A stretch of 38,110 bases of DNA from Actinomycetota bacterium (GTDB lineage: Bacteria > Actinomycetota > Actinomycetes > Mycobacteriales > Pseudonocardiaceae): positions 1 to 38,110 of the forward strand of contig JAJPIR010000137.1 in NCBI GenBank assembly GCA_021324675.1. The letters run 5' to 3'. Shown here one piece after another: positions 1,921 to 24,258 of the stretch (its first letter is position 1; each line of letters begins with the position of its first letter). The notes beneath the pieces were generated by a model. That model was not told the DNA's origin, ran no database searches, and saw only the letters and a program-made list of their open reading frames with translations. A program made the translations under genes and the position numbers.

Positions 1921-2110
1921 ATGAGTCAGTTAAGCGCCGGCCACATTGATCCTAGAATCCTCAGTGATCGAGTTTGATACTCCAACCCGACGATCACGTT
2001 CAGATCTATGCTCATCGATCGGCCGGACGGAACCGCGCCGCCGCGCAACTCATTGGTCAGCTGATCGAGGATTCCGTCCAAGGTGGAGGACTCGCACTCT
2101 CGGTACGTGA
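1921..2110 (+). pseudogene. tyrosine integrase C-terminal remnant (island E1)
   Basis: Reading the plus strand from 1921 gives SAGHIDPRILSDRV, a stop codon (TGA 1975-1977), then YSNPTIT, and after a one-base frameshift at 1998 VQIYAHRSAGRN. Together these match the C-terminal box of actinophage/AICE tyrosine recombinases (consensus AGxDPxxxSxRLGHSxPxIT-VxxYxH), including the nucleophilic tyrosine. Two substitutions turn the expected GGA-CAC (Gly-His) into TGA-TAC, and one G is missing between ACG and GTT. Everything upstream of this box is gone. The remnant is followed by a hairpin and a tRNA-derived att copy, the same order as in the other islands. It is clearly non-functional. Confidence 0.7.
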
Positions 2111-2145
2111 CAGAGCTCTTGCCACCGTTCTTGCTAGAAAGGCAC

Positions 2146-2178
2146 GAAAATGCCCCCTGAGATCTCTCGGGGGCGTTC
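2146..2178 (+). terminator. hairpin terminator after integrase remnant
   Basis: GAAAATGCCCCC pairs with GGGGGCGTTCTC around a short loop, just before the att copy. Terminators in the same place follow the other integrase genes in this window. Confidence 0.65.
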
Positions 2179-2182
2179 TCCC

Positions 2183-2225
2183 TGGTGCGGGGGCGGATTC
2201 GAACCACCGACCTCTGGGTCATGAG
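2183..2225 (-). repeat. att copy 1: diverged 3' half of tRNA-fMet
   Basis: On the minus strand this reads as the anticodon loop to the CCA end of the tRNA at 24182-24258. It has several differences, such as CATGACC for CATAACC and a T-stem change. It is the most diverged of the three partial copies, so probably the oldest junction. It marks the boundary between islands E1 and E2. Confidence 0.75.
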
Positions 2226-2313
2226 CCGTCCCAGGATCGTCTCACCTGTACCCACCCAACGGCGTCCCGCCGGGGTGGTCTCCGAGGTCAGCATGATGTC
2301 GGCTCGTTGCGGT

Positions 2314-2330
2314 GGTGAGAACTGCGGTCA
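2314..2330 (+). promoter_or_regulatory. candidate paired integrase arm site, left end of E2
   Basis: GGTGAG at 2314 and GGTCAT at 2326 are 12 bp apart, about 90 bp right of att copy 1. The spacing equals that of the other GGTNAC-like pairs near att copies. Confidence 0.35.
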
Positions 2331-2391
2331 TCTGGTGGCGGCCCGGCACCCTGCCTGCCCACCGAGGCGAGGGCGCGGGGGGCCGGCGTAG

Positions 2392-3045
2392 CTACTGCTC
2401 GAGGGACGGTGCATCGAGGTAGCCGGCCAGATCCACGCTCTCGAGGGGAAGGTCGATCTGTGCAGCGGTCTGATCGAAGCGGGTGAACTCGACGGTGGTC
2501 CGCATCGACGTGTCGGGGCTGGCGGAGCCCGCCATCATGATCTCGACGCGGCGCAGTCGGCCGTTGTCGTCGAAGGCGGGCCGGGCCCTCAGCTGCCAGT
2601 CCGGATTGAGCCCAGGATGGGTCAGGTCAGCGGCTCGATCGCGATCGAGCTCCACCACGTCAGGCTCGCCGCCCGGCGCGGCTGACCGGCAGCACTGCCG
2701 GAGCACCTCCAGCGCCCAGCGGGGGTGCGTAGGGGTCCAGTGCCCGGCCCGCTGAGCATGCCTGGTGTGCGTCCACACCCCGTCGGGCATCTTCTGGTAG
2801 GTCACCGACCCGTCCAGGACCAGTGACGTGCTCGCACCCGTCAGCGAGGCACGGTCACTGCGGAAATCGACGACGCCACGGTACTGCGACGACATCTCCG
2901 CCGGCAGGGCATCGCCGGCAGCCTCGTCGGGAAAGCTGTACTCGAGGAGCACCGCTACCTCGGCGCTGCCTTCGGCCACAGTGCGCGCTACCCCGGCGGC
3001 GATGTGAGCGCACTGCGACTGCGGCGCCGGCCCGTCTACCATCAT
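2392..3045 (-). CDS. hypothetical protein, LppX/LolA-like pattern
   Basis: The product has 217 residues from ATG-ATG at 3045/3042. The centre (EMSSQYRGVVDFRSDRAS, LVLDGSVTYQKMPDGVWTHT) and the late part (PAFDDNGRLRRVEIMM, TTVEFTRFDQ) alternate strands. This order is like the LolA/LppX half-barrel of actinobacterial lipoproteins, where substrate-lining strands are followed by a 'thing yielded the test protein' helix. However, no signal peptide or lipobox is visible, so a cytosolic role or a lost N-terminus is possible. GC content and codon use are similar to the chromosome. It stands alone, convergent to nothing, just inside island E2. Function not assigned. Confidence 0.55.
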   Translation of the reverse strand: MMVDGPAPQSQCAHIAAGVARTVAEGSAEVAVLLEYSFPDEAAGDALPAEMSSQYRGVVDFRSDRASLTGASTSLVLDGSVTYQKMPDGVWTHTRHAQRAGHWTPTHPRWALEVLRQCCRSAAPGGEPDVVELDRDRAADLTHPGLNPDWQLRARPAFDDNGRLRRVEIMMAGSASPDTSMRTTVEFTRFDQTAAQIDLPLESVDLAGYLDAPSLEQ

Positions 3046-3221
3046 CCTCTGAGCCTAATGCGGTAGCCGCAGCGCGCGACTTTTCACTCACAGTCGGCTC
3101 ACCCGATAGCCTGGATGCAGCCTATGAGAGCAGCTACCGGGCGGCGACATGCCCCTGTTCGCGGAGCCGATCGCATCGAGCGCTGGTCCCTCGTCCTGGC
3201 CGATTTGCTCGTCGCGTCGGT

Positions 3222-3573
3222 GGTGTCATGGTGCGAGGTCGCCGCACAAATCAATCGAGCCCTGGCCAAGAAGCGACGCGTCATCGCTGTTGGCGCGACG
3301 GTCATGCGAACTCCCGAGTCACTAGCGGTCCACAATGAGCCCAAGGCGCCTATTCGGCCCCAAACGGCATGGACCGATCTCTATATTTATCCAGGATTCC
3401 GGTTCAAGGTCGTGGATGTACTGCTGACGAACCTTCACCGACCACGGTCCAGCCACATTGTACTCACGGCGGGTTTCGCCGGCAAAGATTTCGTTATGCG
3501 GTCCTACGCCGAGATCTTAGAGAAGGATGGATACGAGTTCGACATGTTCGGCGACAGCATGCTGATTTTATAG
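3222..3573 (+). pseudogene. queA: queA fragment (tRNA ribosyltransferase-isomerase C-terminus)
   Basis: QueA transfers and isomerises the ribose of SAM onto preQ1 in tRNA during queuosine synthesis. The frame here matches roughly the last 115 residues of the usual 340-360: RRVIAVGATVMRTPESLA (family RRVIAVGTTxxRxLE), then TDLYIYPGFRFKVVDVLLTN (family TDIFIYPGYxFKxVDxLxTN), FAGKDFVMRSYAE, and the closing FGDSMLIL. The open frame extends upstream to 3115, but that part is not QueA-like, and the N-terminal two thirds of the enzyme are absent. It is followed after 25 bp by another gene fragment (flavoprotein), so this patch is debris from an earlier recombination. I am confident of the family and confident that it is not a working enzyme. 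Confidence 0.75.
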
Positions 3574-3597
3574 TCGCGCGGACACGCAAATGACATC

Positions 3598-3720
3598 ATG
3601 GAACGTGCAGAATGCATCGACACAGTCCTGATTGGCGGTGGTCATGCGGGTCTTTTAGGAGCTATGTCATACAGCGCGAGGGGCGCGAAGCATGTGGTTC
3701 TAGAAAAGGCACGAGCTTGA
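3598..3720 (+). pseudogene. flavoprotein N-terminal fragment (FAD-binding Rossmann motif)
   Basis: A 40-codon frame from ATG 3598 to TGA 3720 encodes ECIDTVLIGGGHAGLLG, then YSARGAKHVVLEKARA. The GxGxxG-type loop (GGGHAG) preceded by a hydrophobic strand and followed by the HVVLEK strand is the FAD-binding start of flavin-containing monooxygenases and related oxidoreductases, which are usually more than 350 residues long. Only the first beta-alpha-beta unit survives. Directly after the stop the sequence changes to integrase remnant. It lies 25 bp after the queA fragment on the same strand. Confidence 0.65.
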
Positions 3721-3754
3721 GCCTGTGCGTGGCAGCGATACCAGGCACCGGGTC

Positions 3755-3940
3755 AAGTGGCTGCCTGCTGCACTGTCCGATCGCTCCGCCGCTCTGTGGC
3801 TGCTCGCAGTCACAACGGGAATGCGGCGCTCCGAGCTGGCCAGCGCCAACCGGGACCTGCTCGACCTCCATCCGCCACACCTACGCCACGCTGTCGCTGG
3901 ATAGCGGCGCATCACACCAAAGATCGTCAGCGACCGATGC
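3755..3940 (+). pseudogene. internally deleted tyrosine integrase remnant
   Basis: The first part reads KWLPAALSDRSAALWLL then AVTTGMRRSELASANRDL, the Arg-I box of tyrosine recombinases. About 100 codons are then missing. In another frame SIRHTYATLSLDSGA follows, the His-x-x-Arg box, and after a further shift TPKIVSDR. It is therefore the wreck of another integrase gene inside island E2. No att copy is seen next to it. This suggests that E2 swallowed, or was built on, an older element. Confidence 0.65.
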
Positions 3941-4100
3941 AGACGGTCTCGCGATTGGTGTTGTTCAGTGTGATTAAGTGTCCGGAAAGTGTCCAAGTGA
4001 TCATGGAGCGTGTCGCGTGGCTTGGTCTCGGGCTCTGGGCTGCGGGTCCAGGACTGAGAGTGGATGTTCGTGTCACCATGACGGTGTGGTCTCGTCAGCG

Positions 4101-5384
4101 GTGAACGAGGGCGCTGGCGCCTTGATCTATCCCCATCGGTTTTGCAGTGCGCGGCAACGTAACGAGCGGTTGGGCCGGGTGCTGCGTTTGGTCGCGGGGG
4201 TCAAGACGGTGGATGAGCGGTTGCTTGAGCAGTTGGGCAGGCGGATGTTCGCCCGCGACGAGCTCGGTGCCCGGCTGGCTACGGCGATGCGCTTGACGAA
4301 GGATGATCCCGGGCGGGTCAGCATGGCGCAGTTTCACGCTGCCCTGGCTGACGGGATAGATGCCGTGCCGCAAGCGCCTGAGGCGTTGCGAGAGTTCTTT
4401 GCGGTGATTGATGAGGTGCCGGGCTGGGTGGACTTCGATCTGTTGGAGCGAGGCGCGGAGGTATTTCGGCGGTTTGGGCGCAGCCGAGATGATGTGTTGT
4501 TGCAACTGTCGCTGATTGGGGGATATCGGTTCGCCGGACCGGCTGACCTGCTGGTGCTGACCGGTGGCCTGACCGGTTCGAGCGCGATGCGCCGACTCGG
4601 GGAAACGCAGAAATGGGCCGATGCAGTCAGTTCACCGGCGGGAATGCGCCGATCCGGCGAGGGTTTTCAGCTCACTGTCCACGTGCGAGTGACGCACGCG
4701 CTGGTCAATCACCAGTTTGAAACCAGCGGCCGCTGGGACATCCCCCACTACGGCCTGCCGATCAATCAAAGTGACCAGGCGGGGACGCTGGGGCTGTTTA
4801 GCGGCGCGGTGTTGCTCGGGGTGCGCGTGCTGGGCCGCATCGTGACCAGATCCGAGTCGCTGGCGGTGATGCACCTGTGGAAGTACGTGGGCTGGCTGCT
4901 GGGCATCGACCAGGAGTGGCTGTTTGATACCGAAGGCGACCAGAACGTCTTCAACTACCACGTCGTGCTCGCCCAAGCCGGCGCCACACCCGCTGGCGCC
5001 GCCCTCGCCGCGGCACTTGTCGATGGACAACTCACCCAAAATTACGGGCGCCTGAACACGTTTCGTGGACACTACGCGCGGTTGCGCATGCTGAGCATGC
5101 TGCGCTACTTCCTCGGTAAACAAGGCCTGCGCGACCTAGACTTGCCCATTACACCGATCTGGGCCATCCCACTGATCGTCGCCAGAAATCTGGTCGAATC
5201 AGGGCTCATTGCCCGTACCAGCCTTGGGCGCCGTTATCTCGGCTACGCCAACGACCGAACCTCACAACGCCTTCTCAAACTCAGATTCGGCACCGCGCCT
5301 GCAGAAATCGGTGCCCTGCCAACCTTAACTCCGCCACTTCTCAGCGACGCGGTGCCCGCCAAGGGATGGCGGCAGCCCGACTAG
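4101..5384 (+). CDS. oxygenase MpaB family protein (DUF2236)
   Basis: About 427 residues from GTG 4101. The frame is open further left to 3978, but that part overlaps integrase debris and has no family character. The family (MpaB, latex-clearing protein Lcp) binds heme b and cleaves or oxidises isoprenoid side chains or polymers. Matching parts are the N-terminal GWVDFDLLERGAEVFRRFG, GPADLLVLTGGLTG, the conserved helix FQLTVHVRVTHALVNHQF with Arg and His (heme-contact helix in the family), WDIPHYGLPINQSDQAGTLG, the segment following it, and LWKYVGWLLGIDQEWL. No secretion signal is visible. The gene is alone, about 490 bp before an O-methyltransferase on the same strand; a shared tailoring role is possible but unproven. 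The weak ribosome binding site makes the start uncertain. Confidence 0.75.
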   Translation: MNEGAGALIYPHRFCSARQRNERLGRVLRLVAGVKTVDERLLEQLGRRMFARDELGARLATAMRLTKDDPGRVSMAQFHAALADGIDAVPQAPEALREFFAVIDEVPGWVDFDLLERGAEVFRRFGRSRDDVLLQLSLIGGYRFAGPADLLVLTGGLTGSSAMRRLGETQKWADAVSSPAGMRRSGEGFQLTVHVRVTHALVNHQFETSGRWDIPHYGLPINQSDQAGTLGLFSGAVLLGVRVLGRIVTRSESLAVMHLWKYVGWLLGIDQEWLFDTEGDQNVFNYHVVLAQAGATPAGAALAAALVDGQLTQNYGRLNTFRGHYARLRMLSMLRYFLGKQGLRDLDLPITPIWAIPLIVARNLVESGLIARTSLGRRYLGYANDRTSQRLLKLRFGTAPAEIGALPTLTPPLLSDAVPAKGWRQPD

Positions 5385-5877
5385 CCCTCGACGGACCGGT
5401 GCGCATCTCGTGCAGCTCTGCCCCGGGCTGCCTGGTAGTCCATGAGGGAGGCCTGGGGATGCCCCACCCTGCCGACAGAGGTGTGGTGGCCGGCCATCCC
5501 GCAGACCTGCCCGCCCGGCGAGGGCATGGTTTGGTTACACCTGCGGGGTAAGTGCACCATGCCCATTAATGACGATCACACATGAGCCCCAGCTTGGAAG
5601 ACTGCGCTCGTCGCGCCGTCAGGGGCCTCGACCTGCGGTCAGGCCGGGTCACAGTGACCCGCTCTTGACCGTGGTTTACCGCAGCTAATCGCACGCCGAC
5701 AGCGCTTCGGCGTCACGATCGACGAGCGCTGCGTAAGCCGCCAGCTACTCGCGGAATTGGCTTGATCCGATCGCCCTTGGCATTGTCAAGCGGCCTGGCG
5801 TTTGACGCTGCGCAGGTCGCGGTGGCGATCGTAGGCTAGCCAGCCGACAGACCTGTTCTCGGAAATGGGGTGCGTTG
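5385..5877. other. intergenic region between oxygenase and methyltransferase
   Basis: There is no intact gene. On the plus strand at about 5680-5762 a short frame reads LIARRQRFGVTIDERCV then SRQLLAELA and stops. It has the helix-turn-helix flavour of IS630-type transposases (RFGVxxSxxxVxRxL), but it is too short to call. The sequence just before 5878 should contain the methyltransferase promoter. Confidence 0.35.
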
Positions 5878-6924
5878 GTGAGCGAAGTACAAGCGTCGGC
5901 GGTCGAGCACGATACCGAGGTGACACCCGCTGCGATTATGCAACTCGGGATGGCGTTTTGGGGCTCGAAGGCGTTACTCAGCGCTGTTGAGCTGGGGGTA
6001 TTCTCGGAGTTGGCGAGCGCGGGCGCGTTGGATGGCGACACGCTGCGGAAGCGGTTGGGGCTGCACCCGCGCAGCTCGAGAGACTTCTTGGACGCGTTGG
6101 TCGCGCTGGGCATGCTCGAGCGCGAGGACGGCCGCTACGCCAACACGCCGGCCACCGGCTTGTTCCTCGATCGGGCCAAGTCGTCTTACGTGGGTGGCAT
6201 GCTGGAGATGGCCAACGCGCGTCTGTACGGCTTTTGGGGCTCTCTGACGGAGGGTCTGCGAACCGGTCTGCCGCAAAATGAGGTCAAGGGCGGCGGCCAG
6301 GACATGTTCGAGGTGATTTATCCCGATCCGGTGAAGTTGGCGCAGTTCGCCCGCGCGATGAGCGCACTCAGCGCCAACACAGCCAGAGCCATCGCGGCGA
6401 AGTTTCCCTGGCAGCAGCACCGCAGCGTGATCGACATTGGCTGCGCCGAGGGAGCCGTGCCGGTTCAGATCGCCCTCGCGCATGAGCACATCACTGGCGG
6501 CGGTTTCGACTTGCCCGCGCTCGGGTCGATCTTCGACGCGTACGTCGCGGGCTTCGGGCTCGGCGAGCGGCTGAGCTTCACTGCCGGCGACTTCTTCACC
6601 GACCCACTGCCCCAGGCGGATGTGCTCGTGATGGGCCACATCCTGCACGACTGGGACCTCGACGAGAAACGCCTGCTGGTGCGTAAGGCCTACGACGCCC
6701 TGCCCGAGGGCGGCGCGCTGATCGTCTACGATGCGATCATCGACGATGAGCGGCGCAGCAACGCCTTCGGCCTGCTGATGAGCCTCAACATGCTCATCGA
6801 GACACCCGGAGGGTTCGACTACACGGGTGCCGATTGCCGTGCCTGGATGCATGAGGTGGGCTTTCGCGACAGCTACGTCGAGCACCTCGTTGGGCCTGAC
6901 TCGATGGTTGTCGGAATCAAATAG
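5878..6924 (+). CDS. SAM-dependent O-methyltransferase (family 2)
   Basis: The product has 348 residues from GTG 5878; a TTG lies one codon earlier, and TGGGG upstream is the likely ribosome binding site. The N-terminal 100 residues form the winged-helix dimerisation domain ([39 protein letters not shown]). The Rossmann part has SAM motif [16 protein letters not shown], the acidic GGGFDLP, and the active-site segment [14 protein letters not shown] with the general-base histidine. It ends with [11 protein letters not shown] and [17 protein letters not shown]. This is the acetylserotonin/hydroxyneurosporene/anthracycline-type O-methyltransferase family. The substrate is probably a phenolic or polyketide hydroxyl, but cannot be told. 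It looks intact and is the best-preserved cargo gene of island E2. Confidence 0.85.
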
Positions 6925-7008
6925 GCGGTCTCGCTACAGCTGCGACACGGCGTCGGGCCGCGGGGGGCTTTCGGGCGTGCCACCCGTGGCTGTGGTGCGA
7001 TCTACCCA

Positions 7009-7901
7009 ATGACTGGCTGCGCGCATCCGAGCACCGATTGCGGCTGGCCGACCCGGCCGCGACCGAGCACGGCCCCAAAACAGGACGGTCTCTCACCCAA
7101 GACCGTGCGAAACGTGCACACCATGCTCACCGCAGCACCAAGCGATGCCGTTCGATGGGACTACATCCCGCGAAACCCCGCAGCTGACGCCAAGCCACCA
7201 AGAGCACCACGGACAGTACGCGAAGTGTGGACCGCAGAACAGCTCCGGCGCTTCATCACCCAAGTCCTTAGCGACCGCTTCTACGCGTTGTGGCTACTGG
7301 TCTGCACCACTGGCCTACGCCGCGGGAACTGGCCGCCCTGCGCCGCAATGGTGTCGACCTCGACAACGGTCGGATCACGAACAGCACAACCCGCGTGGTA
7401 GTCGGCGGACGAGCCGAAGATTCCGATACCAAAACCCACAGCAGTAGGCGGTCAGTCGCTCTGGACCCCATGACGCTCGCCGCCCTCCGCAGCTACGTCC
7501 GACTGTGGGACATCGAGCGTGCTGAATTCCAACACCAGGGCGCCGTTCTGTTCTGCTGGCCCCACGGTCACCCCATCCATCCAGAAACGATCAGCGACTG
7601 GTTCGCTCAGCACTCCATCGCCGCCGGATTGCCACCCATACGCCTGCACGACGTCCGACACAGCTACGCCACTGCCGCGCTACGCGCGGGCGTACCAGTC
7701 AAAGTGGTCAGCGAACGACTCGGACACTCCTCCGTCGCCTTCACCCAGCAGGTCTACATGCACGTCATCCCCGGCATGGATGCAGAGGGTGCCCGGCTCG
7801 CAGCGACGGCCATCCTCGGGCCAGTGTCAGGACCCATCTCACCCAGCGACGCGGCCGTGACTAATTCGGTGACTGCAGGGTCAGACTCACCACTGCTATG
7901 A
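7009..7901 (+). pseudogene. int: tyrosine integrase, N-truncated and frameshifted (island E2)
   Basis: The frame from 7009 gives GLSPKTVRNVHTMLTAA, the last part of the core-binding domain, and then LVCTTGLRRG. At 7324-7328 GGGG of the expected Arg-Gly-Glu codons is reduced to GGG, and the reading moves to the next frame, continuing ELAALRRNGVDLDNGRI, PPIRLHDVRHSYATAA, VVSERLGHSS and QQVYMHVIPGMD. All catalytic residues (Arg-I, His-x-x-Arg, Gly-His, Tyr) are thus still encoded, but in two frames. About 150 residues that normally carry the arm-binding and most of the core-binding domain are missing. The gene points into terminator and att copy 2. It should be inactive unless the frameshift is a sequencing error and an N-terminus is not needed. 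Confidence 0.85.
7857..7874 (+). promoter_or_regulatory. candidate paired integrase arm site (E2 right end)
   Basis: GTGACT occurs at 7857 and 7869, 12 bp apart, inside the integrase 3' end about 90 bp left of att copy 2. It is a variant of the GTTACC/GGTCAC pairs at the other ends. Confidence 0.35.
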
Positions 7902-7916
7902 GCTCCTACAGCAACG

Positions 7917-7952
7917 AGAAGGCCCCTGAACCCGACTGGTCAGGGGCCTTCT
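7917..7952 (+). terminator. terminator after E2 integrase
   Basis: Perfect 13-bp arms AGAAGGCCCCTGA and TCAGGGGCCTTCT around a 10-base loop, 16 bp after the integrase stop and 7 bp before att copy 2. Confidence 0.8.
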
Positions 7953-7959
7953 GCGGTAG

Positions 7960-8001
7960 TAGCGGGGGGCGGATTCGAACCGCCGACCTCTGGGTTATGA
8001 G
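7960..8001 (-). repeat. att copy 2: 3' half of tRNA-fMet
   Basis: Over 42 bp this is identical to the tRNA 3' part (anticodon through discriminator base) at 24182-24226. Right of it the tRNA sequence is replaced by GCCGTCCCAGGGTCGTCTCACC, split here as GCCGTCCCAGG and GTCGTCTCACC, nearly the same flank as at att copy 1. It separates islands E2 and E3. Confidence 0.85.
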
Positions 8002-8118
8002 CCGTCCCAGGGTCGTCTCACCAGGCCCGACTGGATGCATTCGAGATGGCCGGTACGACTGCCGGCATCTGTGTTGTCCCATGCTGTCTCAGCAGACTCA
8101 CTCGGTCGCGCGGCGTCT

Positions 8119-8138
8119 CGTTACCACTGCCGTTACCA
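8119..8138 (+). promoter_or_regulatory. candidate paired integrase arm site (E3 left end)
   Basis: CGTTACCA at 8119 and 8131, 12 bp apart, about 120 bp right of att copy 2. The same octamer pair with the same spacing lies left of att copy 3 and left of the intact tRNA. Confidence 0.5.
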
Positions 8139-8202
8139 AGCACGGTCCCTACTCCCCCGGTCTGCCCCGACCGTGGTCGGCGACAGAGGCGAGGACCCTG
8201 CG

Positions 8203-8372
8203 ATTAACAGATGCAGGCAAGTCCGGGATCGGACCGCGCAACGTGGGCGTGCAGCGTTCGCCGGGGAGTGTACGAGTGCAGCACGGTGCTGCTCGTTGCG
8301 GTCAAAACTGCGGTCACCTAGTGACACTCCGGCGCCCTACGTGACGATCAAGGCAGGAGCCACTTGACCCCA
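8203..8372 (+). repeat. 170-bp direct repeat, copy A
   Basis: Matches 9361-9531 at roughly 80 percent. Shared blocks include TTAACAGATGCAGGCA, GAGTGCAGCACGGT and CTTGACCCC. It contains GCGGTCA at 8298 and 8310, again a 12-bp pair. A shorter piece of the same sequence occurs near 2300-2335 at the left end of E2, so it is part of the island left-end structure. Confidence 0.65.
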
Positions 8373-8805
8373 GAAGCACGCAAACTCCCTCCCATGCCCA
8401 CGATCTGTGCCACGCCCCGGCTTCGCAGTGTGCTGCCGGTGCTCGGTTGTTGTCTGCGTTGCCATCATTACTATCGTCAGCTCCCGAAGTGAGTGGCCTA
8501 CCGCGAGCTTGCGCACTGGGACTCGTGTGCCATTCGGTCGACCTGGTATGCCGACCGCACCGCAGCCGATCGCGTCGACCTAGACGGCCAAGTTTCCCGG
8601 ATATCAGGCGTAGCAGACTGCTGTCTATCGCGCGGAACCTCACCTGGTGCGGGCTCACTGCCGTGGTCGGGCTGATAGGCCGACGAGCACCAACCCCCAC
8701 GGTCGATACAGGATTGTGAACCCGTTCGTTGGCACTTGCCGCGGTGTCGGAGAAGGCGACGGTAGCAGGTATGCAGAAACAGCTTTTTAGCGGCGTTGAT
8801 ATTCT

Positions 8806-9293
8806 ATGACTATGCAGTGGTCGACTCTCCTAGGAACAGCGCTCGGAACTATAATTGGCTTAGGCTCTGCACTTGTCAACGACACGCTTAGACGGAAGCG
8901 TGAGCAACAAAAATGTCAGAGGTCTATTCGACAAGAGCTTTATGCGGAATTCTTTCAGTGCTCACTGAGGCGCATGAAAAGATGAGGGCTGCGTCACAGA
9001 GGGAGTACGAGTCGGCCACCGTTAGGTCGCTAGAGATCCGCGATCTTTTCCGCGATTGCTATAGAATGCGCTACCAACTTTCCATTATCGCTGAGCAAGG
9101 CGTGATCAACGCAAGTGAAGCAGCCTTTCGAAAGATGCGCGATATACGCGATTTTCTATCCACAGGCGGAGAACTGGAGTCTGCTGACTACGAGAATCTC
9201 CGTACCGATTGGGGTGCTTTATTTCGGCGGCTACAGCATTCCATGCGACTGGAGTTGAGGATCGGAAAGGTGGAGTTGACGGGAGGGTCGTAG
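8806..9293 (+). pseudogene. conserved actinobacterial one-helix membrane protein, frameshifted
   Basis: From ATG 8806 the frame encodes WSTLLGTALGTIIGLGSALV, a transmembrane helix, then a charged helix ending RQELYAEF. Around 8953 one base is missing, and the rest continues in the next frame: LTEAHEKMRAASQ, IRDLFRDCYRMRYQLSII, AFRKMRDIRDFL and LQHSMRLELR, to TAG 9291-9293. The joined product (about 160 residues) has the layout of a widespread actinobacterial family with one N-terminal helix and a long coiled-coil cytosolic part (ALxxAHExxRA, YxLRYQLALLAP, AFRALRDLRDxL). Its function is unknown to me. A start at 8913 in the second frame would give a 126-residue soluble protein, but that would discard the membrane helix, so I prefer a broken gene. 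Confidence 0.65.
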
Positions 9294-16851: not shown

Positions 16852-17280
16852 ATGAGTAGCATCGAACAGCGAACCGACAACATTCGCGCAGCCTGGAACA
16901 ACCATGACGCTTCCGACTTCGCGTCACAGTTCTCCCCAGACGCTGTACTGCGATTCATCGCAACAGGTGAGGTCGCGCATGGCCGGAAGCAGATTCAAGG
17001 ATTCGCAGCCGCCCTCCTTGAAGCGTTTCCGGACTTGCGCTTAGACCGCCGGAATACCTACGGCTGTGGTGAAAGAGTCCGTGTCATCGAATGGACGATT
17101 ACCGCGACCCATAACGGACAATTCTTGGGCGTCCCGCCGACCCATCGTTCGGTTGAGATTCGCGGTTGTTCGATCTTTGTGCTAGGTGCGGACGGGTTTG
17201 TCAGCGGGGAAACCGTCTACATGGATGCCGCAACCATGCTTCGTCAACTCGATGTACTTCCGGCCTCTGCGAACGCATAG
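16852..17280 (+). CDS. SnoaL-like NTF2-fold protein (ester cyclase type) 4
   Basis: 142 residues. I choose ATG 16852 (MSSIEQRTDN) over the GTG/ATG upstream because GAGGTGAGA precedes it. Visible pattern: IRAAWNNHDASDFASQFSPD, GEVAHGRKQIQGFAAALLEA, FPDLRLDRRNTYGCGERVRV, EWTITATHNGQFLGVPPTHR, SVEIRGCSIFVLGADGFV, ETVYMDAATMLRQL. This is the classical SnoaL-like polyketide cyclase layout (FPDxxxxxxxxxxxGxxVxxxWxxxGTHxGxFxGxxPTGR). It is 69 bp after gene 3 and probably part of the same transcript. A hairpin follows. Confidence 0.82.
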   Translation: MSSIEQRTDNIRAAWNNHDASDFASQFSPDAVLRFIATGEVAHGRKQIQGFAAALLEAFPDLRLDRRNTYGCGERVRVIEWTITATHNGQFLGVPPTHRSVEIRGCSIFVLGADGFVSGETVYMDAATMLRQLDVLPASANA

Positions 17281-17327
17281 CCTACATCCCACTGGGTAAG
17301 GATGCGTATTACGGTGATCCACCCCTG

Positions 17328-17369
17328 CCCACCTGTGCTAATGGGCGCGGCGCGGTCGGCACAGGTGGG
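17328..17369 (+). terminator. hairpin after the NTF2-like gene group
   Basis: Perfect 11-bp arms CCCACCTGTGC and GCACAGGTGGG with a 20-base GC-rich loop, 48 bp after the stop of gene 4 and followed by TAGCTTTCG. It is the probable end of the NTF2-like transcript. Confidence 0.55.
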
Positions 17370-17522
17370 TAGCTTTCGCTGCTTGTCTCCGACGGCCCGA
17401 CCACGGCCCAGGGGTCGACTCTGCCGACGGTTGTGTCGGTTAGTGGCGACCTATCCCGTCGACCATCCAGGGCGTTCGGTGGGGGATGTGCTGGGAGATC
17501 GAGCGGAGAGGGGATTAGGGGC

Positions 17523-17978
17523 ATGACCGTTCCAGAGACTGGGGCGTGGTCGGTCGTGGGTGGTCGGTCGGCCAGTGGTGCTAGGGCCGAATGCAGCTAC
17601 GCGCTTGGGCATGAGGAACCTGAGCTGGCCCGCCTGGAACATCAAGCGCGTCTTCTGGGGCCGGCAACGGTTGCGATTCTGCGTCTTGCCGGTATTAGGC
17701 CAGGGATGCGGGTGCTGGATATCGGTACTGGGCTTGGTGATGTAGCTTTCGCTTCTGCGGAGCTAGTCGGGTCTGCCGGCGCGGTCGTGGGAATCGACCA
17801 GGAAAGCCGCGTTCTGGAATCGGCGCAGCGTCGCGCCGATTCTCGCGGTTTGAACAATGTCACCTTTGAGCAAGGCGACGCCCGGACATGGCAAGCATCG
17901 CACCGCTTCGACGCTATCGTCGGTCGACTCGTGCTGTTGTACTGCGATGTAGCGCAATGTAATTGTATGCCGAGGTGA
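17523..17978 (+). pseudogene. SAM-dependent methyltransferase, C-terminally truncated
   Basis: ATG 17523 follows GGAGAGGGGATTAGGGGC. The first 140 residues are a class I methyltransferase: a short N-terminal YALGHEEPELARLEHQARLL, LRLAGIRPGMRVLDIGTGLG (SAM motif I), GAVVGIDQESRVLESAQRRA, LNNVTFEQGDARTW, and FDAIVGRLVLLYC, the motif IV strand. After Cys the family continues for another 120-140 residues (DPAxxLRxxxxxLRPGG...), but here the sequence becomes unrelated at about 17945 and a stop follows at 17976-17978. The enzyme lacks the rest of its Rossmann fold and should be inactive. It is convergent with the ICMT-like gene. Confidence 0.75.
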
Positions 17979-18044
17979 TACGACGGGGCGTGACGGGGCA
18001 CTCGCTGGAAAAGATCGCATCCGCCGTGGTCACAATTCCGGGGC

Positions 18045-18656
18045 TTATGCATCGCCGGACATCTTCGCGGGTCGGTGGACCGGTATCAGACGGGGGATCA
18101 ACCGGGGCACCTGCTGCCGATAGTGCTCATAGTCGAGAGGGAACGTCTCGGCGAGGAGGCGTTCCTCGGCCCGGATCTTCAGCCAAATCCAGGCGAGCGC
18201 GAGCGCGATGACGACCAGGGTTGGCCCGAACCCAGATGCGGCGGCAGTGCCCAGCGCCATGCCCAAAATGCCGGTGTAGATGGGGTTGCGGGTGATCGCG
18301 TACGGGCCGTCGGTGCGTAACTGATGATCGTCTTTGATGACCGCGGAAACGGTCCACATCCGCCCGAGCACCACCCGCGCCCAGATCGTGAACACGGTCG
18401 CGATCACCAGTACCAGGAGCCCGGCGACGAGCAGCACCGGGGAATGCACGGTCACCGGCTGCCATACCCAGCGCGGTACCAGCCTCACGATGAGCACCGC
18501 CGGGACAGCCACCATCCAGCCCGACGGCACCAGCCGCCGCTGGCGCGCCGCGGGGGCGCGGAACCAGTTGTAGATCGCCCCCACCAACCAGGCGGTCAAA
18601 AACGCTCCCCAGCACACCCAGATGGTGACCTGCGCGATCCAGAACCAGACAAACAT
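18045..18656 (-). CDS. isoprenylcysteine carboxyl methyltransferase-family membrane protein
   Basis: 203 residues from ATG 18656. The N-terminus has hydrophobic helices (about residues 3-28, 46-64, 73-92 and 133-157). The family signature near the C-terminus is complete: LRTDGPYAITRNPIYTGILG, then IWLKIRAEERLLAETFPLDY and YRQQVPRLIPRL. The GPYxxxRHPxYxG and RxxxEExxLxxxFPxYxxYxxxxxRLxP elements bind SAM and the membrane substrate in the ICMT / phospholipid methyltransferase superfamily. Bacterial members mostly have unknown substrates. It is intact, on the opposite strand to its neighbours, so with its own promoter near 18660-18760. Confidence 0.85.
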   Translation of the reverse strand: MFVWFWIAQVTIWVCWGAFLTAWLVGAIYNWFRAPAARQRRLVPSGWMVAVPAVLIVRLVPRWVWQPVTVHSPVLLVAGLLVLVIATVFTIWARVVLGRMWTVSAVIKDDHQLRTDGPYAITRNPIYTGILGMALGTAAASGFGPTLVVIALALAWIWLKIRAEERLLAETFPLDYEHYRQQVPRLIPRLIPVHRPAKMSGDA

Positions 18657-18814
18657 GCCATAAGGGTAATCCTGGCGCCTAGTCTGTTACCGACGTCGGT
18701 TGAGCCGGTTACCGCGCCATGTAACTGTGGTGCGACGTTGCGCGACAAACACCGCAAAGTCAGGTAACTGGGCTATCGTTCGGCAATAGTCGATCTTGGA
18801 TCGTCGCAGGTCAG

Positions 18815-19219
18815 CTGCCGAGCTGGGATCAAGCCTGCCAGCAGCTCACCGAACCGGCGCACATGGTCCGGTTCGGGGACCAGGTGCATGTCAAAGGAAT
18901 TCTGGGTGGCACCGAAGAAGCCGGTCGTCACCTCGAATACCTCACTAAATATCTAACGAAAAGCATCAGCCAAGCCGCTGGGCTTGACGACCACGCCACC
19001 GACGCCCAACGCGACCATCTCCAGCGCCTGCACGCTGAACTGCAGATCACACCCTGCTCGCCCAGGTCCCCGATCTGGCTGCTGTATGGCATCCAGCCCA
19101 AAGGCGCCCGCCACACCATGACCCCCGGCAAGTGCGAAGGCAAAGCCCACCAGCTAGAACACCTGGGCATCGCCGGCCGCCGTGTGCTCATCTCCCGAAA
19201 GTGGTCTAACAAAACCCTG
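18815..19219 (+). pseudogene. RepSA-type replication initiator remnant
   Basis: RepSA of pSAM2 and its relatives starts rolling-circle replication of AICEs. This segment encodes QLPSWDQACQQLTEPAHMVR, FGDQVHVKGILGGTEEAGRH, LEYLTKYLTKSISQAAGLDD, HATDAQRDHLQRLHAELQ, PCSPRSPIWLLYGIQPKGAR and VLISRKWSNKTL. The YLTKYLTKS and CSPRxPxWLLYGIQPKGA blocks are diagnostic of the family. The N-terminal half (zinc-binding and nicking part) and the last 80-100 residues are absent; the reading frame runs to 19372 in unrelated sequence. It shows that E4 derives from an AICE. Confidence 0.8.
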
Positions 19220-19378
19220 GACGTATCGCCATGTAGTACGTCCACCCGAATTGCCCATCGCCAGGGTATCCGCCGGTCAGTGGCCGGACGGCAATACAGA
19301 GAGGCAAGCGGTGCGTCTTGCTACGCTGCCGGTGATCTTGTGGGATGGCTCTGCTTAGCGTCGATCCTGTGATCGCAC

Positions 19379-20822
19379 TTACGCCTGGATCAGGTAGAGG
19401 AAATTGGGGTCTTCACCCTTGCCCGGGATCGCGGGCCGGGTCGTCCAGCCCGGAGGCCAGCAGGTACTCGGACTGGCGATCGAGGTCACCCGGGCGCCCC
19501 AGAAACTGAACACGCCAGTGTCCCGGGCGGGGCGGTTGACCTCGCGGAGGTCGAGCTCGCGGAAGTCGACCTCTCCGTTGAATTGGGCGTGCTCGAAGAT
19601 CGCTTCGTCGGTGAAACGGGCGCCCACGAACTGGGCCAGGTCTGTGAACTTGGCGCGCTCGAAGCTCGCTTCGGTGATGAACTGGGCGTCCTGAAACAAG
19701 GCCTGGTTGGTGAAGTGGACATCAGTGAAGTAGGCCAGGGGGTCGAACCGGACGCCCCAAAAGTGGGCCACGCCGCCGTTGAACCGGGCGCTTTCGAAGT
19801 TCGCCACACCGGTGAACCGAGCATCACGAAAGAAGGCCGCGCTAGCGAACTTGACGCGCTCGAACTGGGCCAGTGTGGCGAATTCGGCATCGTTGAAGTG
19901 GACCAGGGAAGCGAACTTGGCGCGCTTGAACTGGGCTAGGTCAGTGAACAGGGCGCGCCGGAAATCGGCTTCGCTTTTGAACTTGGCGCGTTCGAAGCTC
20001 GCTTCGCCGGTAAATCCAGCGTTCAGAAAGTGCGCCCCGCTCGCGAATTGGGCGCCCTCGAAGTTAGCTTTGCCGGTGAACAGTGTGCCCACGAAATCAG
20101 CTTCGCCTTTGAACTGGGTATGTGCAAAATTGGCGTAGCCGAGCTGGCAATCGGCCAGGGAAAATTTAAGGAGAAGCGCACCAGTGAGATCTACCCGAGT
20201 GTTCGGTGGTGTGCGATGCCAACCGCGTCGGCCGCGCTGGCCGACGACTGGCAGACAGCGGGACAAGATGTCTTGGGCAGCAAGCCGCACCTGCTGTTCC
20301 TGGCGGCGATTCTCGTAGCGGGTATGTGCTTCGGCGGGGGCGTCCTGGTCCGGGGGTTGTTCGTCGGGTGGGGTGTAAGGCATGCGCAGGTAAGCGCAGA
20401 TCACATCCACGATGGTCTGACGCTGTTCCGGGGTGTTGTGCGCCAGGCGTTCCAGCGCGTGCAGACCCGCTAATCGCACCGGTGCCTTGTCGGAGCCGAG
20501 CTGGTCGGCAGCCTTGGTGTAAAGCTCGGTGATGCGCCGTTCGGTGGCGTCGTTGGTTGTGTGTACCAGGGTCAGCTCGGTGTAACGCTGTCGGCGAGCG
20601 GTCAGTAGCAGAGCCACCGCTCCGCCGGTGCCGACCACCAGCGTTCCGGCGGTGCGGATCGCGTCGAGTTGGATCTGCGCCCCCTGCCCCCCCATAGCGA
20701 CGCAGCAGCACGAACGAGACCACCGCCGCGACGGCGAGCACAACCAGCGCCCCCGCAGCGATGCTCCAGTTCGATAACGGTCGCGGCGTGGGCTCGTCGG
20801 GTCGACTGCTGCGTGCGGTCAC
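19379..20822 (-). pseudogene. pentapeptide-repeat membrane protein, frameshifted in a G7 tract
   Basis: The N-terminal part from about GTG 20822 encodes TARSSRPDEPTPRPLSNW and a transmembrane helix (SIAAGALVVLAVAAVVSFVL), then LLRRYGG. At about 20690 a run of seven G on the coding strand shifts the frame. The rest continues as QGAQIQLDAIRTAGTLVVG, a second helix, RYTELTLVHTTNDATERRI, LYTKAADQLGSDKAPVRLAG and LHALERLAHNTPEQRQTIVD. From residue 190 or so about 25 pentapeptide-type turns follow (AxFxxA/DF pattern: FEGAQF, FERAKF, FRDARF), forming a right-handed quadrilateral beta-helix. With six G the product would be one protein of about 480 residues. This architecture (two helices, YTKAADQLGSxxAPVRLAGLxALERLAxN, pentapeptide repeats) is widespread and uncharacterised in actinobacteria. 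Confidence 0.8.
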
Positions 20823-21105
20823 ACTCGGATCATCGCCCACGGCCCGGAAGTCATCACACAGTCTGGTAGTGCGGCCTGCTGGTGCCGCGCTTTGACGCCA
20901 CTTCGCGAGCGCTCCGCAAATTGAAGTGCGATACGACAAATGGGTGGCTCTTGTATCCAGTGGCCCGCCAGGTTAGGCAAATAGCGCAGGGGACAGCCTG
21001 AGACCGTGAGCGTCGATAGACAGGCGCCCGAGGAGGGATCACGGCAGCACGCGCTTAACCAAGCCGAAATGTTGATACCGCCGTTTGGTAGGGAGGAAGC
21101 GCTGG

Positions 21106-21804
21106 ATGGCGGAGGATCAGGAATGGCGGACGTTGCCAGATGGCCGGCGCGTGCCCATTGGACCCAAAAGAAGTAATAATGGCGTGACTCTGGGAGTGGC
21201 TGCGGCCATCATGTTATCGGCGGGCACTGGTCTAGGTAGCGCTACGTCGATCAGTGAATCAGCCAGCGAGTACGGCTCCAGAATCTCCAGGAACGAGTCT
21301 GATGTACGCGCCAACCGCGCCGAGTCCGACGCCCGCGCGAGCGGCACTAGCGATGCCCTCAGGATAACCAGTCGCCTCCGGCGACAAGGTTATCGGGTAA
21401 CAGTCCAAGTGGAGCCCGATCAAACTAATTGCGACGCCCACTCTGACGGAGATGTGCGCACATTCTTCGCCGGGAACCCATGCCGGTCCCTCTACCGGCA
21501 GCTTATCGAAATCGAAGACAAGAGAAACGTGATCATGCTCGGAATGGCTACGATTGAGATGCCTGACCCGCAAACCGCGATGGATCTCAAAAGGCTACTC
21601 GATCAGGCAGACAGAGGAAAAGTTATTCAGCTAAGCCGGGATAGTGGGAAACATCGCCATTTCAGTTTCGCTAACTCACTGTTCACTACCACCCGGCACG
21701 ACGCAACCGTGACCGTCTACGACGGCCAAATAGTCAGCGGCGCCGCCACCGATTTCATCCTCATCGCTTTTTTCAACAACGCACTATTCGGCATCGGCGG
21801 CTAG
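21106..21804 (+). CDS. uncharacterised actinobacterial protein with one membrane segment
   Basis: 232 residues from ATG 21106 (MAEDQEWRTLPDGRRVPIGP); an earlier GTG at 21085 is less likely. A hydrophobic stretch (VTLGVAAAIMLSAGTGLG) at residues 27-44 is followed by a Ser/Glu/Arg-rich coiled segment and then a conserved domain: LRITSRLRRQGYRVTVQVEP, TNCDAHSDGDVRTFFAGNPC, RSLYRQLIEIEDKRNVIML, IEMPDPQTAMDLKRLLDQAD and HFSFANSLFTTTRHDATVTV. The NCxAHSxGxVxxFFxxxPC / LYRxLxExxDxR pattern recurs in a group of exported or membrane proteins of Streptomyces and Pseudonocardiales whose function is unknown to me. The gene is intact and faces the XRE regulator gene downstream on the same strand. Confidence 0.7.
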   Translation: MAEDQEWRTLPDGRRVPIGPKRSNNGVTLGVAAAIMLSAGTGLGSATSISESASEYGSRISRNESDVRANRAESDARASGTSDALRITSRLRRQGYRVTVQVEPDQTNCDAHSDGDVRTFFAGNPCRSLYRQLIEIEDKRNVIMLGMATIEMPDPQTAMDLKRLLDQADRGKVIQLSRDSGKHRHFSFANSLFTTTRHDATVTVYDGQIVSGAATDFILIAFFNNALFGIGG

Positions 21805-21893
21805 CCGGTAGCAACCAACAGATGCGGCACCGAGTTGGCCGCGATCGTCGGATCTGACGACAAAGTGCACCGCGTAGCCTGGAGCTGCAACCT

Positions 21894-21953
21894 TTCACCG
21901 GGATGTATGCCCCGGGGCGACGGCTCCGGGGTCCGGTGGGGGTTCCCGGTGAA
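21894..21953 (+). promoter_or_regulatory. long inverted repeat in the XRE gene leader
   Basis: TTCACCGGGA (21894) and TCCCGGTGAA (21944) form perfect 10-bp arms, with CCCCGGGG and further GC pairing inside. The right arm runs into GAAGG at 21951, the likely ribosome binding site region of the gene at 21968. It could be an RNA structure that hides the site, or an operator for the regulator itself. Confidence 0.5.
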
Positions 21954-21967
21954 GGTGGTGCAAAGCG

Positions 21968-23218
21968 GTGGACGCTGAGGAAGCGTCGGCGATCGGTGCG
22001 CGAGCCCGGATGATCCGCCGTCGCCGCGGGCTGAGCCTGGACGTGGCTGCCGGGCTTGCCGGTATCAGCAAGCCCTATCTATCCGCGCTTGAACGGGGCC
22101 AGCGTGGGTTTAACCGGCGGGGTCTTCTTGAGGATCTGGCGGCCGCTTTGGGCTGCTCGGTGGCGGATCTGACCGGCCAGCCGTACCTGCCGCAGGACCG
22201 CAACACGGCCGATGTGCTGGCGTCGCTGCCTACTATCCGGTTGGCTCTCAATGACTTCGGCCCCATGGACGTGCCGGACCTGACGCCGCGCTCGTTGGAA
22301 GTGTTGGCGATCGAGGCTGACAAGGCCAACGAGCGCTGCGGACAAGCGAATTACTCCCTCGCGGGTCGCGACATGGGCGCTCTGCTCGCGGAATCACAAG
22401 CCAGCGCCTTGACCGTATCGTCAGCCGAGCGGGACCGCGCCTTCACCGCGGCTGTCACCGCATGCTTCGCAGCCGGAGTGGTGTCCAGTCGCGCAGGCAA
22501 CATCGACCTGGCGGCCACCGCAGCACGGCGCGGTTATGACCTCGCGCAGCAACAGGACAACCCGGGAGTCCTCGGGTTCGCTCGCTGGTACTGGGCGTGC
22601 GAGCTCACCAGCATGGGAGCACGGACCCGGGCTCAAGCGTTGTTGTCCGAAGGGATCCACGACCTGACACCAGCGGTGCAGTTGTCTGCTGCGGACACGC
22701 TGCCTGCCGAGCTGGTCGGCATGATGCACCTCCAGCAGGCGCGAACCGCAGCGCGGCAGCAACGCCGTGACGACGCATACGCACACCTCGCCGAGGCCGC
22801 AGTGCTAGCGGACCGGGTTGGCGAGCGCAACGGGATGCGGCAGCACTTCGGACCCACCAATGTCGCGGCGTGGCGAGTTTCGATCGGGGTGGAGCTTGCC
22901 GAGGGTGCAAAGGTGTACGAGGACGCCACGGCGACCCCGATCAACATTGACGCGCTGGGCAGTCGGGAACGCTCATCCTCGATGCACTTTGACCTCGCTC
23001 GCGTGCTGGCGCAGGAGGGAGGGCGACGTGACGGGGATGCGATCCGGCACCTGGACATGGCCGACCGCTTGGCTCCTCAGCGGATCCGCAACGACCCAAT
23101 CGCCCGGGATCTGGTGTTGACCCTCCACCGCCGTGCTCGCCGGCGGGTGTGGGAGTTGGACAGCTTGCGTAATCGGTTCGGGGTAGGCGCACGGGGTCTC
23201 CGAAGTGGAGACAACTAG
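21968..23218 (+). CDS. XRE-family regulator with TPR-like C-terminus
   Basis: 416 residues from GTG 21968. The N-terminal 60 residues are a Cro/C1-type helix-turn-helix: IGARARMIRRRRGLSLDVAA, GLAGISKPYLSALERGQRGF. The rest is a helical solenoid of TPR character (AFTAAVTACFAAGVVSSRAG, AATAARRGYDLAQQQDNPG, LMSEGIH-like LLSEGIHDL, AYAHLAEAAVLADRVGER, HFGPTNVAAWRVSIGVELAE, LDMADRLAPQRIRNDPIARD). It is the common actinobacterial signal-responsive regulator architecture. In AICEs and near-by loci such genes sit a few genes upstream of int and are followed by small metal-binding proteins, as here. The inverted repeat just upstream suggests autoregulation. The gene is intact. Confidence 0.85.
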   Translation: MDAEEASAIGARARMIRRRRGLSLDVAAGLAGISKPYLSALERGQRGFNRRGLLEDLAAALGCSVADLTGQPYLPQDRNTADVLASLPTIRLALNDFGPMDVPDLTPRSLEVLAIEADKANERCGQANYSLAGRDMGALLAESQASALTVSSAERDRAFTAAVTACFAAGVVSSRAGNIDLAATAARRGYDLAQQQDNPGVLGFARWYWACELTSMGARTRAQALLSEGIHDLTPAVQLSAADTLPAELVGMMHLQQARTAARQQRRDDAYAHLAEAAVLADRVGERNGMRQHFGPTNVAAWRVSIGVELAEGAKVYEDATATPINIDALGSRERSSSMHFDLARVLAQEGGRRDGDAIRHLDMADRLAPQRIRNDPIARDLVLTLHRRARRRVWELDSLRNRFGVGARGLRSGDN

Positions 23219-23354
23219 CGTGATCTAGGCCGCAGTCTTGCCGGGTGATCCACGACGCCACTCAGGCACCACCAGCACCACCCGCCGGACCGCGCACCCG
23301 CGAGGTCCTCCGTGCGACCTGCTTGTTGGACCGCGGCCCGGGGGTCACGGGGTG

Positions 23355-23585
23355 ATGGCAGGCAAGCACAGCAGGTGCCGGGCGCACGATCGGACCATCC
23401 CGGTGCAGCGCCGTCCGGGCATTGAGCTGGTAGACGCATGCACCCGGGTCATGCACCGAGTGACCAGTGACGAGCTGCTAGCTGGCCGCCGGTCTGGCGA
23501 CTATGAGGCGCTATGTGGCATGCGGGTGCTCGCCGCCAGCCTGGTCGATCCTGGCCGTGCCCGCTGTGCGGAATGCGCGCAGTGA
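23355..23585 (+). CDS. small cysteine-containing actinobacterial protein (76 aa)
   Basis: ATG 23355 (GTG at 23352 is an alternative) gives MAGKHSRCRAHDRTIPVQRR, PGIELVDACTRVMHRVTSDE, LLAGRRSGDYEALCGMRVLA, ASLVDPGRARCAECAQ. The conserved HRV-x-LxAGRxxGxYxALCGxRVLAASLxxPxxxxCxxC pattern, with the final CxxC pair, suggests a small zinc- or cluster-binding protein. It is commonly found next to XRE regulators in actinobacteria. Its stop overlaps the GTG of the next gene (GTGA), so the two are translationally coupled. Function unknown. Confidence 0.7.
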   Translation: MAGKHSRCRAHDRTIPVQRRPGIELVDACTRVMHRVTSDELLAGRRSGDYEALCGMRVLAASLVDPGRARCAECAQ

Positions 23586-24100
23586 GCAATCCGGCTTCCG
23601 GTCGAGCCGCGGCTGAGCTGCCCCCGTCAACCATCGCTCCCCGGGCCCGGCCGGTTCCACCGCCCACCGTCACGATGACCACGGCCACCGATCCCACCAG
23701 CGAGGCATGCCCCGGTTGCCGCCAGACCGAGGGTGTGCAGCTGACCAGCGCCACCCCCCGCGTCACCGCGTGGACGTGCACATGCGGGCTGAGCTGGGCA
23801 ACCTCCGTGGTAAATCAGCACCTACGGCCGCAATACCCGGTCAGCATCGCAGCGGCACTCGACGAGATCACCCGCCTACGCCGAATCCTGGCGCAGATCA
23901 TCACGCTGGCCGACGACGCGCCGACTCTCACCGACGATCAGTTGCGGGACCGGCTGATCACGCTGGCCCGGTCGGTGAGCTTCACCATGGAGACCTACAT
24001 GCACGGCGACCTGGAAGCCGACCGCGAGGTCGCTCAGGCGCTGGCATCGGTGATCCTCGCTGGTCTACCGGGACAAGTTGGCCCTGGTGAGACGGCATGA
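23582..24100 (+). CDS. zinc-ribbon protein fused in frame to an integrase tail
   Basis: From GTG 23582 (overlapping the previous stop by 4 bases) the first 130 residues form a small zinc-ribbon protein. The metal-binding segment is ACPGCRQTEG ... AWTCTCGLSWATSVVNQHLR (CxxC and CxC), followed by a helical part, ALDEITRLRRILAQIITLAD and LTDDQLRDRLITLAR. At about 23970 the frame passes without a break into SVSFTMETYMHGDLEADREV and ends GPGETA, which is the C-terminus of the E3-type integrase including its nucleophilic tyrosine. This is a chimera created by a deletion or recombination that removed some 900 bp of integrase gene. Homologues of the first part should stop around residue 130. Whether the fusion is made and stable is unknown. 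Confidence 0.75.
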   Translation: MSNPASGRAAAELPPSTIAPRARPVPPPTVTMTTATDPTSEACPGCRQTEGVQLTSATPRVTAWTCTCGLSWATSVVNQHLRPQYPVSIAAALDEITRLRRILAQIITLADDAPTLTDDQLRDRLITLARSVSFTMETYMHGDLEADREVAQALASVILAGLPGQVGPGETA

Positions 24101-24112
24101 GAGTGGACAGAG

Positions 24113-24132
24113 CGTTACCAAATCCGTTACCA
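24113..24132 (+). promoter_or_regulatory. candidate paired integrase arm site (E4 right end)
   Basis: CGTTACCA at 24113 and 24125, 12 bp apart, between the integrase-tail stop and the terminator. Identical to the E3 right-end pair. Confidence 0.5.
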
Positions 24133-24141
24133 CTGAGCATG

Positions 24142-24178
24142 AAACAGGCCCGGCCTACGAGAAGACCGGGCCTGTTTT
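24142..24178 (+). terminator. terminator between integrase tail and tRNA-fMet
   Basis: AAACAGGCCCGG and CCGGGCCTGTTT with T-run. It lies directly behind the tRNA 3' end and can serve both the integrase side and the tRNA transcript. Confidence 0.85.
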
Positions 24179-24181
24179 CCC

Positions 24182-24258
24182 TGGTAGCGGGGGGCGGATT
24201 CGAACCGCCGACCTCTGGGTTATGAGCCCAGCGAGCTACCGAGCTGCTCCACCCCGCG
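24182..24258 (-). tRNA. initiator tRNA-fMet (CAU), complete, target of the islands
   Basis: The minus strand reads CGCGGGGTGGAGCAGCTC at the 5' end and has anticodon stem-loop CTGGGCTCATAACCCAG. The T arm is GGCGGTTCGAATCCGCC, and the gene ends CCCCGCTACCA with CCA encoded. The first base pair is a C1-U72 mismatch and the anticodon stem has three G-C pairs, both marks of initiator tRNA. All 77 bases are present. The three partial copies at 2183, 7960 and 13944 match only its 3' part, which is the usual pattern when an integrase uses a tRNA 3' end and restores the gene at each insertion. Confidence 0.95.

Follow-up and report, generated by a model that had tools for sequence, protein, structure and literature searches.

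How did three partial copies of an initiator tRNA gene come to stand in line with the complete gene on a single contig of an uncultured actinobacterium, and how many integrations does that line record? The window, meaning the whole stretch of 38,110 bases analysed here, is one entire contig of a draft assembly of 364 contigs, and as the contig ends exactly at the window ends, the island furthest to the left is truncated there. The sole tRNA in the window, detected by ARAGORN, is a tRNA-Met(CAT) in which position 1/72 is unpaired and the anticodon stem is GGG/CCC, both of them marks of an initiator. With the tRNA and its flank as query, four places in the same genome were matched (E ≤ 0.001), all on the window contig: 24100–24300 (100%), 13862–13988 (95%), 7959–8003 (100%) and 2175–2227 (91%), the weakest with an E-value of 5.9e-13. 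As far as the assembly shows, the tRNA-Met at 24182 is the genome’s only initiator tRNA gene. What the tRNA and the partial copies have in common extends from the 3′ end of the tRNA as far as its anticodon loop; att2 and att3 are identical to the tRNA over 45 bases, and att1 differs. The tRNA, its copies and the hairpins beside them are as follows, with blocks and integrase types lettered as described below.

24182–24258, minus strand: complete initiator tRNA-Met(CAT), the landing pad (ARAGORN and own-genome matches)
2183–2227, minus strand: att1, altered copy of the tRNA 3′ half at the junction of D and A (own-genome match)
7957–8003, minus strand: att2, copy of the tRNA 3′ half at the junction of A and B, 45/45 bases from 7959
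13944–13988, minus strand: att3, copy of the tRNA 3′ half at the junction of B and C, 45/45 bases
2140–2182: hairpin 1 (folding against shuffles)
7920–7949: hairpin 2 (folding against shuffles)
13903–13943: hairpin 3 (folding against shuffles)
24138–24181: hairpin 4 (folding against shuffles)

Outward of each of the four tRNA or att copies lies a hairpin and then an integrase 3′ end, and all four hairpins are more stable than shuffled sequence on both strands (z −2.8 to −7.0). A sequence-only reading of this DNA had described one full initiator tRNA at 24182 with three 3′-half copies (2183, 7960 and 13944), and an integrase 3′ end with a hairpin ahead of every copy, and this was borne out by ARAGORN, the own-genome matches and the folding, the integrase ends being of types D, A, B and B. 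The blocks of the window thus have the form of integrations into a tRNA 3′ end with direct repeats, and the att copies make up a directly oriented array in which every one is accompanied by a separate integrase end. The 3′ flank of the A type (window 7950–7965) reads TAGTAG, not TGGTAG, hence a tRNA rebuilt by an A element would be without an encoded CCA.

The letters A, B, D and E are our own names for integrase lineages, typed by relatives in sister genomes: G008, G001 and G003_C153 for D, G003_C178 for A, the second integrase of G008 and that of G002 for B, and G007_C73 and Pseudonocardia oroxyli for E. The integrase remnants of the window are the following.

1945–2084, plus strand: D-type integrase 3′ end, amino acids 402–448 of 457, in two frames
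3737–3949, plus strand: integrase fragment inside block A, of uncertain type, E-like by DNA
6940–7901, plus strand: A-type integrase remnant, frameshifted, without the N-terminal part
13020–13862, plus strand: B-type integrase remnant without the N-terminal part, homology from 13080
23969–24100, plus strand: last 42 codons of a B-type integrase, fused upstream to other coding sequence

The A-type remnant occupies two frames (7075–7329 and 7281–7850) and starts at about amino acid 153–178, the B-type remnant of block B runs from about amino acid 173 to a stop at 13862, and the codons of the B-type end beside the tRNA lie at 23969–24094. PF00589 was found in blocks A and B, in remnants only, with C keeping 42 codons and D about 47. 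Searches with five query integrases (E 1e-3; one of them, the B integrase of G008, is itself frameshifted near its C end) gave no match in the window to their first 134 residues and no integrase remnant in block C between its left arm and 23969. The window evidently holds no intact integrase of lineages A, B, D or E, and the further integrases of the same genome share at most 33% identity with B among the matches listed. The broken integrases agree with the proposal that the islands are immobilised, but present immobility is our inference: Faln1739 was excised despite its truncated integrase (PMC3218068), and block B could be mobilised by an incoming B element.

In a tree of 59 rows, in which the window is represented by B and part of A, lineages A, B, D and E are distinct from one another, and each groups with a tRNA-Met locus from another species or genus (L164, L106, L091, L094). 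A tRNA-Met(CAT) follows within 700 bp of the matched integrase stretch in 21 of the 80 loci retained from 88 found with an integrase alignment. Together these results indicate that several integrase lineages use one landing pad, and at least four (A, B, D and E) have evidently used the initiator tRNA in this genus.

The family of these elements is best seen in sister genome G008, where an integrase of 457 aa lies together with HTH_17, RepSA and FtsK_SpoIIIE genes between an att copy at 236709 and the tRNA; this combination of integrase, xis-like HTH, RepSA and FtsK is that of an AICE (actinomycete integrative and conjugative element). AICEs are recognised by a tyrosine or serine integrase, insertion with direct repeats in a tRNA 3′ end, a replication initiator (RepSA, RepAM or Prim-Pol) and an FtsK/SpoIIIE-like transfer protein. 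Two integrases of G003 adjoin Prim-Pol and DUF3631 genes. Two fragments of mobile-element genes were recognised in block C.

18863–19372, plus strand: RepSA fragment (pSAM2-type replication initiator)
14245–14610, plus strand: Mutator-family transposase fragment

The RepSA fragment covers profile positions 273–386 of 438 and occurs in block C only. Like pSAM2 and its relatives, the window combines tyrosine integrases at a tRNA 3′ end, the tRNA 3′ half as direct repeat and a piece of RepSA, and its G008 counterpart has the integrase, HTH, RepSA and FtsK genes; unlike them, its blocks are without an intact integrase, and no FtsK/SpoIIIE-like transfer protein was found among 30 window ORFs scanned (of 113 of at least 100 aa). 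For this last reason the blocks are filed as AICE-derived remnants and not as AICEs. The earlier proposal of repeated tyrosine-integrase insertion at one initiator tRNA by elements of AICE ancestry is thus upheld by the att copies, the RepSA fragment and the G008 counterpart. A phage or plasmid origin was considered and rejected: the D integrase of G008 is below 60% to all 650 phage and 75 plasmid records, with 24.6–28.1% in the ten phage records listed, 26.9–29.5% in the ten plasmid records listed and 24–29% in five viral contigs. Cargo in block C includes four adjacent SnoaL-like genes (15188–17280), and that of block A (3115–6924) a C-terminal part of a queuosine synthesis protein, an MPAB/Lcp oxygenase domain and an O-methyltransferase.

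We consider it very probable that the locus arose by tandem accretion of AICE-family elements at one initiator tRNA gene, and that the elements later decayed and fused. Next to the integrase gene, each element would carry its own tRNA 3′ half, and a tyrosine integrase would recombine this copy with the resident tRNA 3′ half, the strand exchange presumably taking place on the anticodon-loop side. The newcomer would thereby rebuild the tRNA, and the old 3′ half with everything behind it would be moved outward.

The number of elements can be approached from their ends. A pair of direct 7-bp repeats, with starts 12 bp apart, is found after the integrase stop and before the hairpin, and a second copy of the pair lies about 117 bp inside the far att copy. 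The repeats differ by lineage, GTTACCA in B, TTACTAC in D, GTGACTA in A and GGTCACA in E. Tyrosine integrases use short arm repeats, and we take the 7-bp repeats to be arm-type sites, their presumed function. The pairs in the window are the following.

2119–2137, plus strand: decayed D-type arm repeat pair, found by eye (it failed a one-mismatch scan)
7857–7875, plus strand: A-type right arm repeat pair
8120–8138, plus strand: B-type left arm repeat pair (GTTACCA)
13876–13894, plus strand: B-type right arm repeat pair
14108–14126, plus strand: left arm repeat pair of block C, E-type (GGTCACA), the one exact E pair in this genome
24114–24132, plus strand: B-type right arm repeat pair beside the tRNA

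With a rule and distance range derived from part, or most, of the ends tested, a pair at 109–125 bp (at most one mismatch between the repeats) was present in 13 of 17 far ends against 5.9% of random places, and an exact pair in nine of 17 against 0.8% of random places in the same contigs. The far ends without a pair at that distance were att1 of the window, L118, G007_C73 and G004_C63 (4/17), and five of the six ends fetched after the rule was known conformed (G013, G042, L103, L118, L119, L124). Left and right repeats match in eight of the nine islands read, the ninth, L118, being without repeats. In the eight islands that have a single integrase type and two readable ends, 55 of 56 letters agree between left and right, a score reached by 4 of 40,320 permutations (the better repeat of each pair was used, and L118, in which both att copies are present without a pair, was left out). 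Within the window’s own genome the exact E pair occurs in one place, at 14108, the B pair (13 fixed bases) in five, three of them in the window, and a reversed control pattern in none. The repeat pair, distinct for each lineage and present at both ends, would therefore serve as a barcode of element type.

Read with this barcode, block B (8004–13943) has B-type repeats at both ends, and a blastn comparison with the B block of G002 gave matches at the two ends and in a small repeat only. Block C (13989–24181) has an E-type left end, 75% to G003_C36 over 141 bp, and a B-type right end, and its integrase is severed within the gene at 23971, where the likeness to the B copy begins. Because of these unlike ends and the severed gene we read block C as two elements fused by deletion. 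Block A (2228–7956) carries the A integrase at its right end, and its left end is the following.

2228–2260: B-like left end of block A, lacking arm repeats (match to B left ends)

This end shows 33 bp at 91% to the B left end of G002 and 19 bp at 95% to window 8004–8022, so that its B-like nature rests on 19–33 bp outside the core. Its second match, at 2268–2368, is part of a repeat with nine places in the genome. The B-like left end, the missing arm pair and the second integrase fragment at 3737–3949 suggest that block A is probably also a fusion, less surely than block C. The repeat in question (about 170 bp) lies at 8204–8371, 9362–9527 and 2268–2368 in the window and on other contigs in six of its nine genome places, and it also occurs in the arrays of G002 and G010.

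From left to right, the window would then read as a D tail, a block from B-like to A, a block from B to B, a block from E to B, and the tRNA, with the mismatched ends presumably left by deletions running from one element into its neighbour. The elements D, B, A, B, E and B point to about six integrations in four att-bounded blocks, and att copies can thus undercount integrations. The sequence-only reading had counted four islands, a number not supported in view of one clear and one probable fusion and of a relic outside the window. This relic is on contig C26 of the same genome, which also contains the chromosomal flank of the tRNA site; a decayed B-type left end lies there near 4105–3990, 72% like the window across 115 bp and 82% like G002 across 57 bp, without a recognisable att. 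The stack therefore probably continues beyond the window.

Other explanations of the array have to be weighed against accretion and fusion. The four integrase 3′ ends and four att modules would also be expected if exactly four elements had arrived in order and the unlike ends of blocks A and C came from end modules swapped before arrival, and module exchange between AICEs is described in PMC3218068. We consider this unlikely, as the two ends agree in eight of nine islands read, the block C integrase is severed inside the gene, as a deletion would leave it, and block A contains a second integrase fragment. Slightly less likely still is that several of the integrase-end and att copies were made by duplication or gene conversion within the genome and not by separate arrivals. 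In its favour, modules B and C show 94.6% likeness across 257 bp, and conflicting site patterns in the B copies of G000 and G002 suggest recombination between copies. Against it, the integrases D, A and B belong to distinct lineages and the types of the far ends are unlike; copying a single module would produce neither. For the C module alone, duplication or conversion may apply. It is hardly conceivable that the partial copies are unrelated tRNA pseudogenes without island boundaries. Nothing was found in favour of this, though several cargo genes are not mobile-element genes, whereas every copy ends at the anticodon loop and adjoins an integrase end, att2 and att3 have an arm pair at the expected distance, and this layout recurs in G002, G008, G013 and G042. 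Accretion of separate elements, with later fusion, accounts best for these observations.

Relatives show how the same locus has been loaded elsewhere. The junction of A, att and B is common to the window and sister genome G002, with 86.0% in the A integrase tail and 82.3% in the B left end compared with 90.0% in the host UPF0182 gene. The end that follows B is E in the window, D in G002 and G008, and A in G003_C36, hence the tRNA site is loaded differently in these genomes; the differently loaded sites sought among relatives exist, but no empty tRNA site was found among those compared. G004, the least loaded, retains about 100 bp at 78% to window 2129–2227, the tRNA core included. In G005, G006 and G009 the complete tRNA was not matched, and their contigs end within about 1.5 kb of UPF0182. 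In G002 the chromosomal flank, placed with C26, is bound at about 37.3 kb of contig C79; the block after B in this array (L026, G002 C79 51045–52385) contains a tandem repeat of about 120 bp inside a long ORF. G003 C36 (L030:526–569) and G004 C63 (L033:2995–3040) each contain an altered tRNA 3′-half copy, the left flank being the same in both, and an E-type pair lies behind the G003 C36 copy. A family-wide count of partial copies (297 genomes, three candidates scored per genome) was left out.

Whether the stack is ordered by age is a separate matter. In G008, G001 and G003_C153 the integrase next to the tRNA has a full-length open frame, and the distal integrases read in G008 and G002 are broken. 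Against a simple age order, an intact A integrase adjoins a displaced att in G003_C178, and in the window the integrase nearest the tRNA, instead of being the freshest, has been cut down furthest, to 42 codons. G002 and G008 share the junction of B and D (80.8% in the B tail, 74.6% across 138 bp of the D left end, 78.3% in the host), so that D may be ancestral and lost from the window lineage, as by excision, and gains and losses did not follow a simple order. The idea that older islands lie to the left is partly supported by the shared junction of A, att and B, near host divergence in G002, but the junction of B and D allows for a lost younger layer. Dating by att divergence was carried out and failed, as att2 and att3 equal the tRNA over 45 bases and are not datable in this way; the att at 2183, held to be the oldest, is indeed the leftmost and most altered att module. 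With fusion and possible excision the record is incomplete, and the fossil record first proposed is not a clean one. Whether the B and C modules are orthologous to the two G002 copies of B was also considered, and the conflicting patterns were read as mosaicism and set aside: over the last 257 bp the swapped order is favoured (six two-against-two sites versus one and one), and over the longer integrase stretch, with G008 as fourth sequence, the patterns number nine, eight and two.

The T-stem variant of the same-genome tRNA is carried exactly by 13 of 15 displaced att copies, whatever the integrase type, the exceptions being att1 and G004_C63 (window, L026, L027, L036–L039, L082, L083, L103, L118, L119 and L124, without copies from the mixed bins G003 and G007 and from G010, where the complete tRNA was not found). 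Exchange between closely related organisms could produce such a pattern, as could conversion among the copies. Loci L029 and L034 (G003 C167, G007 C5) are 100% identical over 10,882 bases; the G003 and G007 bins have one contig in common, which makes copies from both hard to assign.

Tandem accretion of AICE-type elements at one tRNA is a known process. AICEs occupy tRNA 3′ ends, including AICE Faln5456 in tRNA-Met, and tandem pairs are described at tRNA-Lys (Fean5518/Fean5534) and tRNA-Arg (Sav3708/Sav3728), with integrases like or unlike and with excision both singly and together (PMC3218068). The window shares with these the tandem arrangement at one tRNA and the use of a tRNA-Met gene, but where those are pairs it has four att modules and about six elements, with four integrase lineages at an initiator tRNA, all broken, in fused blocks. 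At Klebsiella asn tDNAs, tandem accretion of genomic islands with unlike integrases is likewise described (PMC4891358); composite islands, site-specific insertion beside an older island and integrases that are not necessarily kin are common to both, while the phyla, element families and tRNA differ. Among titles and the openings of abstracts, no deeper AICE array at an initiator tRNA was found, and we make no claim of priority. The term tandem accretion reportedly comes from Pavlovic 2004.

New in detail are the end code and the fusions. It is conceivable, if rather doubtful, that fusion freezes the stack, a fused block keeping the arm repeats of two integrase lineages, so that no single integrase would assemble both ends and the block could not leave by itself. 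If so, the repeat barcode could recover lost integration layers at an essential tRNA across the genus. The barcode is a cheap test for fused islands and may extend to other tRNA-borne elements. The locus itself, a deep natural array, allows integrations, fusions and losses at an initiator tRNA to be read end by end, a damaged yet readable record of past DNA arrivals.
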